This document shows, one piece after another, positions 5,477 to 64,000 of a stretch of DNA of 64,000 bases (positions are counted from its first letter, which is position 1; each line of letters starts with the position of its first letter). Made by a program: the position numbers and the translations under genes. The notes below the pieces were generated by a model. That model searched no databases and had not been told where the DNA came from. It saw nothing but the letters and a program-made list of their open reading frames with translations. This stretch comes from an uncultured Bifidobacteriaceae bacterium (GTDB lineage: Bacteria; Actinomycetota; Actinomycetes; Actinomycetales; Bifidobacteriaceae), in the NCBI GenBank assembly GCA_946891915.1, contig CAMPNN010000002.1, forward strand, positions 71,223 to 135,222. Direction: 5' to 3'.

Positions 5477-6466
5477 TCAAATATAATTTTTTAACTTTAT
5501 CATCCTTTTCTTCCAATCTTTCTTAATAACCGCTTTTACAACGTTTACATTACTTTTAGAAACAGAATTTATATAATCTGAAGTTATTTTTTCATATTCA
5601 TTAATAAAAGACTTTATTTCTCTTTTGGAAACATGAAGAATTTTTAGAAAATATGACACAAGCACAATGTAATCACCAATACTATTGAAATTAACGTAAG
5701 GCAAATGAATCTCATTAATCAAGCAAGCTGTCATAGGTCGCGACGGTTTCGCTTTTTTAAAACGCGTATCGAAAATGGCAGAATTATGAGCAATTGCATT
5801 CCTTAAATCTTTTAACAGATAAATATATTCATAAACAAGCTCACGATTCGTATCAGATGACAAATTCAATCCAATTTTTTTAGAAATATCTTCTCTAACC
5901 TCATATGTAAGACACGACAAAATATTTCCAAAATCTCCAAGCATCGTTATTTCGAATAATGCCCAAATTGGGACATCTGCATATTTATCATAAAAATGCG
6001 TAATTTTTGAATCTTTATTCTTATATGCACGCGCAAGGTTACGTTGAATAGAATTTTGTAAATCTAATTTCTTTTGCTGAGCTTTTCTTTTTTGATCATT
6101 GGTAAAATTCTTTGGAGAATTATTTGCGCCACTAACCGATTTAGTCAGCATAGCTTGGATACTTTCCGAACGACTTTTCCTAAGTATGCACTCCATTGCT
6201 ATATTTTTTACGGCTGTTTCTATGAACATAATTTTTCCATAGAAAAGTGACTTTAACTCTGAATCGTATTTTATTGTTGCATACACTTCGCCATATGAAG
6301 AAAATGGTATTTGATGTCTACTTTGTGTATCGCTAAAAAAACGATAACCTTTATATCCATGAAAATATCCAGTATTTATTAGTTGTCTTTTTTGTGCACT
6401 ACCAGAAATCATTACGCCACTATCTCTAAGATGTCGCATTAAAGAATCAACTGTTTTATAAGACAT
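5477..6466 (-). CDS. Abi-family (AbiD/AbiF-like) HEPN protein
   Basis: This 329-residue protein resembles the Abi_2 abortive-infection family, whose members stop phage growth, probably as RNA-cleaving HEPN proteins. Supporting features are the opening SYKTVDSLMRHLRDSG, which is typical of the family, and the HEPN-type motif RNAIAH (R-x4-H) near residue 222. The Lys-rich C-terminus and the high Ile/Lys/Asn content suggest horizontal gain. The ATG at 6466 has GAGAAGGAG ten bases upstream; an in-frame TTG nine bases further upstream is less likely. It sits next to a type I restriction operon, as such genes often do. Activity against phage is an inference from the family. Confidence 0.75.
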   Translation of the reverse strand: MSYKTVDSLMRHLRDSGVMISGSAQKRQLINTGYFHGYKGYRFFSDTQSRHQIPFSSYGEVYATIKYDSELKSLFYGKIMFIETAVKNIAMECILRKSRSESIQAMLTKSVSGANNSPKNFTNDQKRKAQQKKLDLQNSIQRNLARAYKNKDSKITHFYDKYADVPIWALFEITMLGDFGNILSCLTYEVREDISKKIGLNLSSDTNRELVYEYIYLLKDLRNAIAHNSAIFDTRFKKAKPSRPMTACLINEIHLPYVNFNSIGDYIVLVSYFLKILHVSKREIKSFINEYEKITSDYINSVSKSNVNVVKAVIKKDWKKRMIKLKNYI

Positions 6467-58913: not shown

Positions 58914-60464
58914 ATGAAGAAGACACCGTTCTACCGTAATGCAGCAATGTTGTTGCTCGCGGGCGCAACTATTATCCCACAATGCTTGGCAGTACCAGCA
59001 ATGGCAGCTCCTGCTGAAGAAGGCTCCGAGCCTGTAACAGCTTGCGCAGCCAAGAAGGACTCGCTGAATAATTATTTGTGGGATTTGCAATACGATAAAA
59101 CAAACATTCTCGCTCGTCACGGCGAAACCATTGACAACAAGTTCTCCAGCGACAGCTTCGACAAAGGCGGCGAATTCGTAGTTGTTGAGCATCAAAAGAA
59201 GAACATCACCAATACAACATCAAACTTGTCGGTTACTTCCGCCAACAATGATCGTGTATACCCAGGTGCCCTGTTCCGCGCTGACCAGAATTTGATGGAC
59301 AATATGCCAAGCCTGATTTCCGCAAACCGCGCTCCACTTACATTGAGCGTTGATTTGCCAGGCTTCCACGGTGGCGAAAGTGCTGTAACAGTTCAGCACC
59401 CAACAAAGAGCTCTGTGACTTCTGCAGTGAATACCTTAGTTTCTAAGTGGAACGCTCAGTATGCAGCAAGCCATCATGTGGCAGCTCGCATGCAGTACGA
59501 TTCTGCAAGCGCACAAAGCATGAACCAACTCAAAGCTAAGTTCGGTGCTGATTTCGCCAAGATTGGCGTGCCGCTGAAGATTGATTTCGATGCTGTACAC
59601 AAGGGCGAAAAGCAAACGCAGATTGTAAACTTCAAGCAGACTTACTACACCGTAAGTGTTGATGCTCCAGATAGCCCATCTGACTTCTTTGCACCATGCA
59701 CTACGCCAGAAAACTTGAAGAACCGCGGCGTTGACAGCAAGCGTCCACCAGTATACGTGTCCAACGTGGCCTACGGTCGTTCAATGTACGTAAAGTTCGA
59801 CACCACCAGCAAGAGCACCGATTTCCAGGCTGCTGTTGAAGCTGCAATCAAGGGTGTTGAGATCAAGCCAAACACCGAGTTCCATCGCATTTTACAGAAC
59901 ACTTCTGTAACTGCTGTGATTCTCGGCGGCAGCGCTAACGGTGCAGCCAAGGTTGTTACTGGCAACATCGATACGCTGAAGGCTTTGATTCAGGAAGGCG
60001 CAAATTTGAGCACCTCCAGCCCAGCAGTTCCAATTGCTTACACCACTTCCTTCGTCAAGGATAACGAAGTAGCAACTTTGCAAACCAATAGCGATTACGT
60101 TGAAACCAAGGTTTCTTCCTACCGCGACGGCTACTTGACTTTGGATCACCGTGGAGCTTACGTAGCTCGCTACTACATCTACTGGGATGAGTACGGCACC
60201 GAAATTGACGGCACCCCTTACGTGCGTTCTCGCGCATGGGAAGGCAACGGCAAGTATCGTACCGCTCACTTCAACACCACTATTCAGTTCAAGGGCAATG
60301 TGCGCAATCTCCGCATCAAGCTTGTTGAGAAGACCGGCTTGGCTTGGGAGCCATGGCGTACAGTGTATGACCGTTCTGATTTGCCACTGGTTCGCCAGCG
60401 CACAATCAAGAACTGGGGTACAACCTTGTGGCCACGCGTTGCTGAAACCGTGAAGAACGACTGA
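58914..60464 (+). CDS. vly: Vaginolysin, cholesterol-dependent cytolysin
   Basis: A secreted toxin of 516 residues that binds human CD59 and cholesterol and forms large pores in host membranes. An N-terminal signal peptide (MLLLAGATIIPQCLAVPAMA, cleaved near AMA-APA) is followed by the four-domain CDC fold. The undecapeptide at residues 472-482 is EKTGLAWEPWR, in which the usual Cys is Lys and the third-to-last is Pro, as in vaginolysin and similar CD59-dependent toxins. Y421-x-Y423-x14-R438-S439 fits the CD59-recognition pattern of that group. The Thr-Leu pair (GTTLWP) for cholesterol is present. The ribosome site GAAGGA precedes the ATG. Transcribed alone, opposite to neighbours, ending in a terminator. 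Confidence 0.98.
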   Translation: MKKTPFYRNAAMLLLAGATIIPQCLAVPAMAAPAEEGSEPVTACAAKKDSLNNYLWDLQYDKTNILARHGETIDNKFSSDSFDKGGEFVVVEHQKKNITNTTSNLSVTSANNDRVYPGALFRADQNLMDNMPSLISANRAPLTLSVDLPGFHGGESAVTVQHPTKSSVTSAVNTLVSKWNAQYAASHHVAARMQYDSASAQSMNQLKAKFGADFAKIGVPLKIDFDAVHKGEKQTQIVNFKQTYYTVSVDAPDSPSDFFAPCTTPENLKNRGVDSKRPPVYVSNVAYGRSMYVKFDTTSKSTDFQAAVEAAIKGVEIKPNTEFHRILQNTSVTAVILGGSANGAAKVVTGNIDTLKALIQEGANLSTSSPAVPIAYTTSFVKDNEVATLQTNSDYVETKVSSYRDGYLTLDHRGAYVARYYIYWDEYGTEIDGTPYVRSRAWEGNGKYRTAHFNTTIQFKGNVRNLRIKLVEKTGLAWEPWRTVYDRSDLPLVRQRTIKNWGTTLWPRVAETVKND

Positions 60465-60643: not shown

Positions 60644-61636
60644 TTATATATCGCGATGCTTTTCAATAACGTAGCCAATTGCGTACATAACTACACCCCA
60701 AGCGAGAACAACTAAACCGGACTGCCACCATGTGAAAACATATGCGTTTGGTGGAAGTTGCGGCCCAGAATTAGCGGAGGTACCTAAGAATTGGCTTACA
60801 GCATTGCCTGGCAAAAGCTGAATAAGTATTGCAGTCCACTTCGCAAAATTGCTTGCAAGCATAATAATGCCAACAATGGCCTGCAGAATCATCACAGCTC
60901 CAATAACGCACATAATTCCGCCGGCAGTTGACTTGCAAATCATTCCAAAGCCGTAAGCCATAGCTGCTACAACAACCATAATTGCAGGAGAGCCAAGAAA
61001 CAGAGTAAGAGGCAATTTCCACGCGTTGCTTCCAGATAATCCGGAAATGTTATCTCCCATAAAAGCTAATTCTGCAGCAGCTAAAGAAACTGTCATTGCA
61101 ATAAGTTGTGCTACAAAAACGTAGATTGCAACCGCAACGAATTTAGCCGTAAAGAACATACCTCTTCTAGGTACAGTCGTAAGAGAAGCCTGAATTGAAG
61201 TCGTAGAATGTTCCGCAGTTACAGCAAGCACTGCAAAAATCGCCAAAACAATCAAAGATATAGAAGCAAAGCTAATAACTAAGCGGAAAATGCCTTCTTG
61301 AGATGCAATAAGGTCACTTTTATCGCTCGGTCCAACAGTAATCGCAGCACTTGATTTGCTACCAGCTGCACCCTTGTTATTAACGTCAACTTTAGACATT
61401 GCTTTCTGCACAAGCGCGATAATAAAACTAAAAATTACTGGCAAAACAATTGTTAATGCCATGCACCACCACGTAGACGCAAGCCCACGCAGCTTAACAA
61501 TTTCAGATTTAAGCGTGTGCATAAATGTAAGGCGTAAGTGCTGAGCGTTCATACTGCGGCCCGTTTTATACGCGTTAGACTGACGTGCGTTAGATTCAGA
61601 AGATTGCACTTGTTGATTTGCTACTTGCTCACTCAT
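60644..61636 (-). CDS. ABC-2 type transporter permease
   Basis: A 330-residue membrane protein with about six hydrophobic segments after a polar N-terminal region of 35 residues. Segments such as WWCMALTIVLPVIFSFII and LVISFASISLIVLAIFAVLAV fit an ABC-2 exporter; AEHSTTSIQASLTTVPRRG resembles the loop seen in permeases for peptides or lantibiotics. It overlaps the ATPase gene by 4 bp (ATGA). The substrate is unknown; self-immunity or drug export is possible. Confidence 0.88.
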   Translation of the reverse strand: MSEQVANQQVQSSESNARQSNAYKTGRSMNAQHLRLTFMHTLKSEIVKLRGLASTWWCMALTIVLPVIFSFIIALVQKAMSKVDVNNKGAAGSKSSAAITVGPSDKSDLIASQEGIFRLVISFASISLIVLAIFAVLAVTAEHSTTSIQASLTTVPRRGMFFTAKFVAVAIYVFVAQLIAMTVSLAAAELAFMGDNISGLSGSNAWKLPLTLFLGSPAIMVVVAAMAYGFGMICKSTAGGIMCVIGAVMILQAIVGIIMLASNFAKWTAILIQLLPGNAVSQFLGTSANSGPQLPPNAYVFTWWQSGLVVLAWGVVMYAIGYVIEKHRDI

Positions 61637-62637
61637 TTTGCACTCTCCTCATTGTTAGATTGCTCTACGTTTTGTCCACTCGGCTTCGAACCGCTGCTAG
61701 GAACAGCCTTCGTTACATACTGCTCTTGACCGTGTGTAAGAGCCAAATATGCTTCCTCAAGCGATGCATGCTCTTGATTCAGCTGGTAAACCAAAATCTG
61801 ATTATCTGCAATTTCGCGAGCAAGCTGATTAAGCTCGCATCCTGTTATTCTGAGAAGCTCGCCTTCTTGAACGTCTTGAGGCGTGCGATTATCTTGCAAA
61901 ATATTACATTCAGGATTAGTTTGAGTAAGTACAGACCTTAATTTTTCGCCTTCTGGCGTTACTAAACGTATAGCATGCTGCGAATGTGCGTCAACAAAAT
62001 CTTGAACTGTTGTGCGCTCCAAAATTTCGCCATGCGCAATAATCACAAGATTATCTGCAGTAAGCGCAACTTCGCTCATTAAGTGCGAGCTAAGTAGAAT
62101 TGCTCGACCTTCGCTTGCGTAATACCTGCATAATTCACGAACCCACTTAACACCTTCTGGGTCTAGGCCGTTAATTGGCTCGTCCAAAATAAGATTGTGC
62201 GGATCAGCTAAAAGCGCTGCCGCAATCGAAAGACGCTGGCTCATGCCAAGCGAGAACGAACCTGCTTTGCGGGTTTTTACACTAGTCAAACCAGTAATAT
62301 CAATGACTTCATCGACACGTTTCTTTGATATTCCGTGAGTTAAAGCCAGTGAATACAGGTGATTGTAAGCCGTTCGGCCCCTGTGAGCAGACTTTGCGTC
62401 AAGAACTGCGCCAACTTCTGTCATTGGGGATGTGATTTTTGCGTAAGGTTTGCCGTCAATAAGAGAAGTGCCACTATTGGCATGAATAAGATTTAACGCA
62501 CAACGCATGGTAGTAGATTTACCAGCGCCGTTAGGGCCCAAAAAGCCCGTGACTTTACCGTCTTCGGCGACGAAAGAAACGTCTTTAAGCGCTGTTTTTT
62601 CGCCAAAACGCTTTGTAATATGTTGAAATTCTAACAT
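61633..62637 (-). CDS. ABC transporter ATP-binding protein (ABC-2 partner)
   Basis: The 334-residue ATPase works with the overlapping permease. Walker A GPNGAGKSTT, the signature FSLGMSQRLSIAAALL (LSGGQ-like, slightly divergent) and Walker B LILDEPINGLDPEG are present, with the His switch SSHLMSE. The C-terminal part (about 220-334) is the usual regulatory extension of this class. No ribosome site is visible before the ATG, so a leaderless start is possible. Confidence 0.92.
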   Translation of the reverse strand: MLEFQHITKRFGEKTALKDVSFVAEDGKVTGFLGPNGAGKSTTMRCALNLIHANSGTSLIDGKPYAKITSPMTEVGAVLDAKSAHRGRTAYNHLYSLALTHGISKKRVDEVIDITGLTSVKTRKAGSFSLGMSQRLSIAAALLADPHNLILDEPINGLDPEGVKWVRELCRYYASEGRAILLSSHLMSEVALTADNLVIIAHGEILERTTVQDFVDAHSQHAIRLVTPEGEKLRSVLTQTNPECNILQDNRTPQDVQEGELLRITGCELNQLAREIADNQILVYQLNQEHASLEEAYLALTHGQEQYVTKAVPSSGSKPSGQNVEQSNNEESAK

Positions 62638-62756
62638 AAATTAACAATATCACAAATAAAAAAAAATATAGATTAAATGTAAACGTTTATAAGTACAGAC
62701 TATTGCGTTTTGATTAATATTTTTGTTGAGATTTTGCTGCTGATATTTTGCTGTTG

Positions 62757-62806
62757 AAATTTTAATTAAGATTTTAATTAAGTTTTTAATTAAGTTTTTA
62801 ATTAAG
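62757..62806. repeat. AT-rich tandem repeats (TTTTTAATTAAG)
   Basis: Four units of TTTAATTAAG(A/T)TT lie head to tail just beyond the 3' end of the TrmH gene. The TTAATTAA cores are self-complementary. No hairpin with G-C arms is present, so this is probably repeat expansion and not a terminator. Confidence 0.6.
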
Positions 62807-62808
62807 AT

Positions 62809-63615
62809 TCAGCAATTTGGTGCTGCATGTTGCGCAATCCACGCGTGCATGGAAACAGCCGCAGCTGCTCCTGCGTTTAGCGAGCGAACAGAGCCGAATT
62901 GCGAAATATAAACAACGTCATCCGCCATTTCTAGTGCTTTTTTAGAAAGACCCGGACCTTCCGCACCAAAAAGCATAAGGCAACGTTTAGGGAACTTGTA
63001 GCTTTCCATAGCAACTGCGCCTGGAATGATATCGAGCGCTATAACGCGAGCGTTTTTAGCGTCTTGTTCCTTGATATTTGCGATTTTTTCTGCTTCTTTA
63101 TTGCCTTCTGCCTGCGCTTTAAGCAAAAGTTGATGCGCTTCTTCTGTTTCTCGTGCTATATTTTCGCGCCAATTAGTTACTAGAGTTTCAATAGTTGGGC
63201 AGCACTCAACGTATTGGTAAAGCTCAGTCATTAACGAGCCTTTACGATTCCATTTATGAGGCCCTACAATATACACTTTTTTCGCTGTAAACGCGTTTGC
63301 AGTGCGAACCATAGAGCCTATGTTGAAATCGTGAGTCCAATTTTCTACAGCTACTTCAAACTCGTGGCGTCCTTTAGAATCGAGATCCGCTTTTATAGCT
63401 TCTACTTTCCAGTATCGGTAGCGGTCTAGGACGTTACGCTGGTCGCCTTCGTCTAGTAATTCAGTGCTAAACCGCGCATCATAATTTGGCGATTCTGGAT
63501 TATCTGGACGAGGCTCACCTGGATGCTCTTCTTCCCACGGGCAAACTCCTATAGGTCGAAATTCTGGCTCATCGGAAACTTTTGCAGCCAAAGTAATTGG
63601 ATTCGGTTCGTGCAT
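62809..63615 (-). CDS. SpoU/TrmH-family RNA methyltransferase
   Basis: A 268-residue 2'-O-ribose methyltransferase of the SPOUT class, which uses SAM and a trefoil-knot fold. Motif 1 NIGSMVRTANAF, motif 2 LMLFGAEGPGLS and motif 3 SQFGSVRSLNAGAAAAVSMH are all intact. The target, a tRNA or rRNA nucleotide, is not clear. The ATG at 63615 (MHEPNPIT) is chosen with GGAG 12 bases upstream; a TTG six codons earlier is an alternative. It is preceded by the Cys-rich gene with a short gap. Confidence 0.9.
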   Translation of the reverse strand: MHEPNPITLAAKVSDEPEFRPIGVCPWEEEHPGEPRPDNPESPNYDARFSTELLDEGDQRNVLDRYRYWKVEAIKADLDSKGRHEFEVAVENWTHDFNIGSMVRTANAFTAKKVYIVGPHKWNRKGSLMTELYQYVECCPTIETLVTNWRENIARETEEAHQLLLKAQAEGNKEAEKIANIKEQDAKNARVIALDIIPGAVAMESYKFPKRCLMLFGAEGPGLSKKALEMADDVVYISQFGSVRSLNAGAAAAVSMHAWIAQHAAPNC

Positions 63616-63692
63616 GTATAAGTTTTGCTCCAATTAAAGTATTAATTTGCGCTTGAGACTTGGCAGCTAGTCTTTGCAACTAGCCTTGGCAA

Positions 63693-63995
63693 CTAGTCTT
63701 TGCAGCCGTCAGTTGCGCAATCTCCTGTGCAACCTGACTTGCAGTGACCGCCACAGCAGTTGTCTTCGCAGCATGGCTCAGTGCAACCATCATTAGCACA
63801 ATCACCAGTGCACTCTACCTTGCAGTGGCCACCACAGCAGTTATCCTCGCAGCAAGGCTCAGTGCAACCATCATTAGCACAATCACCAGTGCATTTAACC
63901 TCACAATGACCGCCACAGCAATGATCGTTGCAGCAATCTTCGTGATCTGCATCTGCACGTAATTCTTCTTCACCGAAAGCTTGAACAAATGCCAT
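63693..63995 (-). CDS. Cys-rich tandem-repeat protein (24 Cys in 100 residues)
   Basis: A 100-residue protein whose last three quarters are a tandem 27-residue repeat. Repeats at about residues 26-52 and 53-79 differ at only two positions, with a partial third at 80-100. Each unit has eight Cys and one His in the order CC-GG-HC, KC, DC, GC, PCC (for example CCGGHC, CTGDCANDGC and TEPCCEDN). No signal peptide or membrane segment is present. The spacing resembles metal-binding proteins such as metallothioneins, but I recognise no named family. The ATG lies 5 bases from the window edge, so its ribosome site and promoter are outside. Confidence 0.75.
   Translation of the reverse strand: MAFVQAFGEEELRADADHEDCCNDHCCGGHCEVKCTGDCANDGCTEPCCEDNCCGGHCKVECTGDCANDGCTEPCCEDNCCGGHCKSGCTGDCATDGCKD
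63696..63920. repeat. 81-bp tandem repeat within the Cys-rich gene
   Basis: Two near-identical 81-bp units at 63840-63920 and 63759-63839 are followed by a truncated unit at 63696-63758. Repeat number is likely to vary between strains, which would change the number of metal-ligand blocks in the protein. Confidence 0.8.
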
Positions 63996-64000
63996 TTTAG

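Follow-up and report, generated by a model that had tools for sequence, protein, structure and literature searches.

The window analyzed here is a 64,000-nt stretch of DNA from an uncultured Bifidobacteriaceae bacterium (GCA_946891915.1, contig CAMPNN010000002.1, positions 71,223 to 135,222 of the forward strand), and it ends in a Cys-rich open reading frame (ORF) on the reverse strand. An original prediction, made from the letters of the window, described this ORF as a free-standing small protein that possibly binds metal. Recomputing its composition from the ATG gave the same values: a length of 100 residues, 24 of them Cys and 5 His, arranged in units of 27. The window has 305 stop-to-stop frames that are 60 residues or longer, and this one, with 24% Cys, ranks first by a wide margin, the next reaching 13%; the mean Cys content of the 50 frames of at least 200 residues is 1.5%. 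Tandem Repeats Finder (TRF) resolved an 81-bp period with 2.5 copies and 85% matches in the Cys-rich stretch. The frame runs without a stop codon up to base 64,000 and is therefore cut by the window end; in 10 of 10 loci from other genomes (8 Gardnerella, 2 Bifidobacteriaceae bacterium), it extends approximately 182 codons further upstream. In all 12 Gardnerella-type genomes the Cys-rich frame forms the C-terminal third of a 282- or 309-residue protein, with three units in the 282-residue form (7 loci) and four in the 309-residue form (L005, L007, and L008); two further tail-bearing loci, L013 and L014, have cores with 98% identity. The last 1.2 kb of the window matches the 12 tail-bearing loci with a DNA identity of at most 94%, and the window therefore probably comes from another strain or species of Gardnerella. 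Judged from these alignments, the Cys-rich frame is the tail of a longer protein resembling orotate phosphoribosyltransferase (OPRT), a gene of which the window holds only the end (Table 1), and the reading of a free-standing 100-residue protein as its only product is not supported.

The first ~200 residues of the full protein form an OPRT-like domain found across Bifidobacteriaceae. The AlphaFold model of the protein from locus L001 has the type I phosphoribosyltransferase (PRTase) fold, with 10-residue pLDDT means of 77-97 for residues 1-200 except for one block at 60. At the sequence level, no OPRT or PRTase family model scored above cut-off in the Pfam/NCBIfam scan of the core, and the best match to a solved PRTase was 2p1z with an E-value of 0.019. 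The N-terminus of the predicted 100-residue protein, MAFVQAFGEEELRAD, is the conserved end of this core (LPFVxxFxExELR in tail-less homologues), and DSSP assigned a strand (180-190) and a helix (191-205) to the region of MAFVQAFGEEELRADA in the L001 model. The family was surveyed in 181 genomes with a match, of which 4 gave PyrE-type proteins and, of the other 177, 176 were fetched (G158 was left out), resulting in 180 loci with 176 true family members; L001-L010 and L041 were omitted from counts where L011-L022 hold identical genes. OPRT proper (PyrE; M. tuberculosis OPRT, 5hkf/5hki/5hkl) carries a DTTTTG loop for phosphoribosyl pyrophosphate (PRPP), whereas a D[SA]WLSEK-type loop takes its place in 176 of 176 family loci. 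The DTTTTG-type loop occurs in L068-L071 only, four weak PyrE-type matches outside the true family, and a separate true PyrE is encoded in 12 of 12 genomes tested. The OPRT-like core probably no longer makes orotidine monophosphate (OMP).

Table 1. Coordinates of the Cys-rich gene end and its conserved neighbour in the window.
Feature	Coordinates	Strand	Remarks
C-terminal part of OPRT-like protein with Cys-rich tail	63693..64000	-	first ~182 codons past window end; full 282-aa form in L001 5455-6303
ORF of the original prediction, possible internal-start product, 100 aa, 24 Cys	63693..63995	-	Shine-Dalgarno past window end, read in relatives
MAFVQAFGEEELRADA, C-terminal strand and helix of OPRT-like core, conserved, no free N-terminus	63948..63995	-	aligned with the LPFVxxFxExELR motif in homologues that lack the tail
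Repeat unit 1, 27 aa, 8 Cys, GGHC	63855..63935	-	
Repeat unit 2, 27 aa, 8 Cys, GGHC	63774..63854	-	
Repeat unit 3, 26 aa, 8 Cys, GGHC	63696..63773	-	
SpoU-type RNA methyltransferase, conserved downstream neighbour	62809..63633	-	PF00588 2.9e-21

The repeat units follow the pattern CCxDxCCGGHCx3CTGDCx2DGCx3, and each unit of 27 residues contains 8 Cys and 1 His. In an alignment of 42 units from 13 sequences, Cys is kept at 336 of 336 positions and the His of the GGH motif in 42 of 42 units, and D4, G9, H10, T16, G17, D18, D22, and G23 are equally invariant, while the first Gly of GGH is replaced by Asp in one unit. When ten three-unit arrays were compared, positions 1 and 2 of the 24 Cys codons proved invariant, and 8 changes fell at position 3. 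The dN/dS ratio is 0.05 for the tail (7 arrays) versus 0.10 for the core, supporting strong purifying selection on the Cys residues of the tail; the dS of the tail is approximately 4.5 times that of the core. The array was originally described as nearly exact at the DNA level and recently expanded. The units in the window are mutually only 69-85% identical in DNA, and in the ten three-unit arrays the mean identity is 91% between positionally matching units of different genomes but 74% between differing units. The units are therefore orthologous by position, and the three-unit array is older than the split of these genomes. Comparison across genomes, as proposed at the outset, did reveal a difference in unit number, with 2 (P0003-P0005), 3, or 4 units per protein. 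The four-unit forms may contain later duplications, which show most clearly in L008 (units 2 and 3, 95% identical); the corresponding identity is 90% in L007 and at most 85% in L005.

A scan of genome contigs, the reach of which is limited to close relatives, returned 10 tail loci, all in Gardnerella or Bifidobacteriaceae records. Of 189 genomes of the family, 12 carry the tail, namely those of the contig scan and the two with 98% core identity, as does one of 396 genomes drawn from the phylum (G009, a Gardnerella genome also present in the contig scan). A protein database search with the 100-residue frame gave a single match, a 71-residue two-unit fragment (P0001). Within what was searched, the repeats are restricted to Gardnerella. 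A mobile origin of the tail was considered and rejected, as no match was found among the plasmid or phage records searched. The literature searches returned no title or abstract start about this protein among their top matches, and some terms gave no paper.

A second Cys/His-rich segment was found in the same protein family. Three of the 180 loci (L046, L052, and L053) carry a different stretch, for example CCGGGQCGTGH...HVCACGGHDEHH, in a loop before the last strands, and apart from the tail (12 loci) and this loop (3 loci) no locus exceeds 3 Cys per 30 residues counted from the core start. The loop type is also present in 8 of 208 database proteins examined; Alloscardovia macacae and A. venturai are its named carriers, and A. 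criceti does not have it. The three loops diverge from one another with CxCGGH recurring, and the close relatives L043 and L050 lack such a Cys/His-rich loop. In a quick tree of the core, built from a subsample of 88 rows with the trait columns excluded and supported by the Shimodaira-Hasegawa-like approximate likelihood ratio test (SH-aLRT), the tail-bearing Gardnerella rows form a single clade with an SH-aLRT of 100, and the loop type falls inside a second clade (SH-aLRT 99; 9 rows with and 3 without the loop), with tail-less lineages separating the two. Cys/His-rich segments have therefore been gained at least twice, at different sites of the protein, and the gain of the loop in Alloscardovia is independent of the Gardnerella tail.

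We consider it rather likely, although well short of certain, that the C-terminus of this PRTase-fold protein carries a metallothionein-like domain of tandem Cys/His repeats, the units of which bind Zn(II)/Cu(I) and buffer or store metal. Like the bacterial metallothioneins of the SmtA/BmtA type and MymT, the protein is dense in Cys with conserved ligand spacing, contains some His, and has no signal peptide as judged by eye from the start of the full protein, as had been predicted. According to PMC7387436, SmtA binds four Zn and a Pseudomonas metallothionein (PflQ2 MT) forms a Zn3Cys9His cluster, to which one unit of the tail, with 8 Cys and 1 His, comes close. In the proposed mechanism, the thiols would be available in the reducing cytoplasm, where the protein is presumably located, each 27-residue unit would enclose a small thiolate cluster of Zn(II) or Cu(I) as it folds, and the fusion protein would buffer or store metal in the cytoplasm; the tail would be made along with its housekeeping neighbours, without metal induction, and a second, free tail protein would be translated from a conserved internal ATG.

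Several observations weigh against this assignment. Neither Pfam nor NCBIfam gave a match above cut-off for the tail, and the Protein Data Bank (PDB) gave none at E-values up to 1, so the prediction that the unit belongs to no named family was borne out and the sequence resemblance that would tie the tail to a known metallothionein is missing. The model leaves the tail unstructured (10-residue means of 36-51), which is expected without metal yet lends no support, and in one unit of P0005 the His of GGH is replaced by Asp. The tail also differs from SmtA, BmtA, and MymT in its tandem 27-residue units, its fusion to a PRTase fold, and its neighbours, which are RmuC, the SpoU methylase, and, further on, GatC and GatA rather than an SmtB-type regulator; with such housekeeping neighbours, induction by metal in the classical manner is unlikely. 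In a scan of L001 5400-6340, in which metal-regulator operators were not searched for, the sole promoter-like site (6304-6332) lay after the stop codon, and neither the gene nor the stretch preceding it contained one.

Other explanations of the conserved Cys residues were weighed against metal binding. The tail could serve as a redox or thiol buffer, or as a scaffold of transient disulphides against oxidants, with metal binding being incidental. The many invariant Cys residues of a presumably cytoplasmic protein would suit this role, and metallothionein thiols also scavenge reactive oxygen species, as stated in PMC7387436. However, a mere supply of thiols would need neither an invariant His nor a spacing as constant as CCxDxCCGGHCx3CTGDCx2DGC, which is broken once, at the first Gly; the Alloscardovia loops, too, combine many His with many Cys residues, and we regard this role as unlikely. 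A zinc-finger-like or Fe-S domain, giving the OPRT-like core a contact with nucleic acid or a partner, has a smaller chance still, since no Pfam family, zinc finger and ferredoxin included, matched over cut-off in the Gardnerella or four Alloscardovia-type proteins. The ZipA_C hint in P0124 (16.6 of 23 bits) lies in the core, outside the loop. Moreover, usual zinc fingers have a lower Cys density than the 8 in 27 residues of the unit, which counts against such a domain. Very unlikely, in our judgement, is that the Cys codons constitute a cysteine-sensing translational attenuator of the downstream methylase gene, where ribosomes would stall at scarce Cys-tRNA. The Cys codons are indeed very dense and lie near the next gene, whose start codon follows the stop codon by 33 nt in L001, and Cys-rich regulatory small ORFs in mycobacteria are mentioned in PMC9094748, but the invariant non-Cys residues and the low dN/dS of the tail point to a function of the protein, no terminator-like hairpin was found in L001 5400-6340, and the promoter-like site follows the stop codon. 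A functionless repeat kept by slippage and gene conversion would fit the variable unit number and the elevated dS of the tail but is strongly disfavoured, to the point of being scarcely credible, by the dN/dS ratio, the absence of non-synonymous changes at Cys codons, and the positional orthology of the units. A secreted disulphide-rich toxin or a precursor of a ribosomally synthesized and post-translationally modified peptide (RiPP) was rejected, as the frame continues into an enzyme-like domain and has no signal peptide by eye. The match to a secreted disulphide-rich family that would have spoken against the original prediction did not appear, conotoxin I2 scoring 13.1 against a Pfam gathering cut-off of 27 bits, and no peptide-maturation gene was present among the flanking genes identified by family scan.

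The 100-residue form may also exist as a free protein, in keeping with part of the original prediction, and the evidence for this is indirect. All 12 tail-bearing loci have Met at the predicted start, and none of 164 tail-less loci does; in the latter, a simple pattern read L (123), V (30), I (8), or T (3). The Shine-Dalgarno sequence 9 nt before the ATG is GAGGAG in 11 of the 12 loci and AAGGAG in L014 (one coding change), and the rest of the 45 upstream bases is identical in all 12; GAG is the rarer codon in the core (GAA 108 versus GAG 47). Start codon and Shine-Dalgarno sequence are conserved together with the tail, as expected of a nested in-frame gene, leaving aside P0009, a tail-less database protein that also has Met at this position. 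The anti-Shine-Dalgarno pairing energy of the internal start is -9.0 in 10 of 10 loci, compared with -7.0 for the best of 481 other internal Mets and -7.8 for the gene's own start; nearby starts range from 0.6 (methylase and ABC ATPase) and 0.2 (rmuC) to -10.9 (gatA), taken at the first listed start codons, which may be wrong.

Silent variation drops around the same site. Among 10 genomes, the number of silently varying codons goes from 42 in 141 to 2 in 61 around the internal start, and with 12 genomes the counts along the gene are 41/140, then 3/62 near the internal start, and then 45/80 in the tail. The conserved stretch (L001 5878-6060, 61 codons) ends abruptly at the tail start. The p-value of 5e-6 is optimistic because the 61-codon boundary was set after seeing the variation map; by permutation, the value was 0.0043 for the run located at the Met and 0.035 for the longest run at any position. 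Four control genes (9-10 genomes) never had fewer than 11 silently variable codons per 61; control genes available from few genomes do reach low values (5 for the clpB frame from 3 genomes, 0 for gatA from 2 genomes) and were not used. When the test was applied by cluster, 27 of 29 rows were scored, 25 of them tail-less, the two unscored rows being one clade at two thresholds; genomes recur between the rows of the two thresholds. A mild drop (5/52 versus 34/139, p 0.026) appeared in one of the tail-less clusters, a cluster of 3, and p was 0.07 for the Alloscardovia-type cluster; divergence within many of the tail-less clusters exceeds that within Gardnerella. An RNA element behind the conservation was rejected: no Rfam match came near the gathering score, the fold was no stabler than shuffles (z-score +0.42), and the stretch contains no promoter-like site and only three short inverted repeats. 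The silent-site drop, the Met, and the Shine-Dalgarno sequence fit internal initiation, which may take place at this ATG; alternatively, the silent variation could have been lost when a segment of ~200 bp was recently swept. Such a product would resemble the "isoform ORFs" of PMC9094748, which share a stop codon with a long gene, start within it, and have an upstream Shine-Dalgarno sequence; the short form here would differ in consisting mostly of the added Cys-rich tail. A wider proposal is possible but doubtful: that one locus yields both an OPRT-like/metallothionein fusion and a free metallothionein of ~100 residues, whose internal start arose with the tail, and that the OPRT-like protein is part of metal homeostasis in Bifidobacteriaceae, which would explain the unrelated site in another loop in Alloscardovia.

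The gene has a conserved setting, with RmuC (PF02646) upstream in 129 and the SpoU methylase frame downstream in 173 of 176 family loci, counts that were taken from 3.5-kb pieces with motif patterns and may miss some. In the window, a 13-bp tandem repeat (CTTGGCAACTAGT, 3.5 copies, 81% matches) at 63659-63704 overlaps and follows the stop codon of the Cys-rich gene. Three database tail proteins (P0002, P0005, and P0006) run past the usual end with QLQxLAANTKxKY; the position of the stop codon therefore differs between strains. A pair of genes for an ABC-2 type permease and its ATPase (60644-62637, reverse strand) lies downstream of the methylase gene, and AT-rich tandem repeats with periods of 12 and 14 bp (e.g., ATTTTAATTAAG, 4.2 copies) occupy 62727-62809 between the ABC ATPase and methylase genes. 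Between the ABC transporter pair and gatC, an intact thiol-activated cytolysin gene (58914-60464, forward strand; PF01289, E 1.7e-136) was found, in line with the vaginolysin expected of Gardnerella; at this place L001 has no such frame and L009 has one.

The tail is more interesting than a stray Cys-rich ORF in view of its fusion to an enzyme-like core, its conserved internal start, and the separate second gain of a Cys/His-rich segment. The OPRT-like family is widespread, and gains of Cys/His-rich segments in two genera at different sites hint at work with metals. If the free form exists, the locus would be a clear case of a domain born at the end of a gene and released as a protein of its own by an internal start. 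Host proteins chelate zinc and copper in the vagina, as described in PMC12418763, and for this reason a metal store could matter for Gardnerella in that environment.
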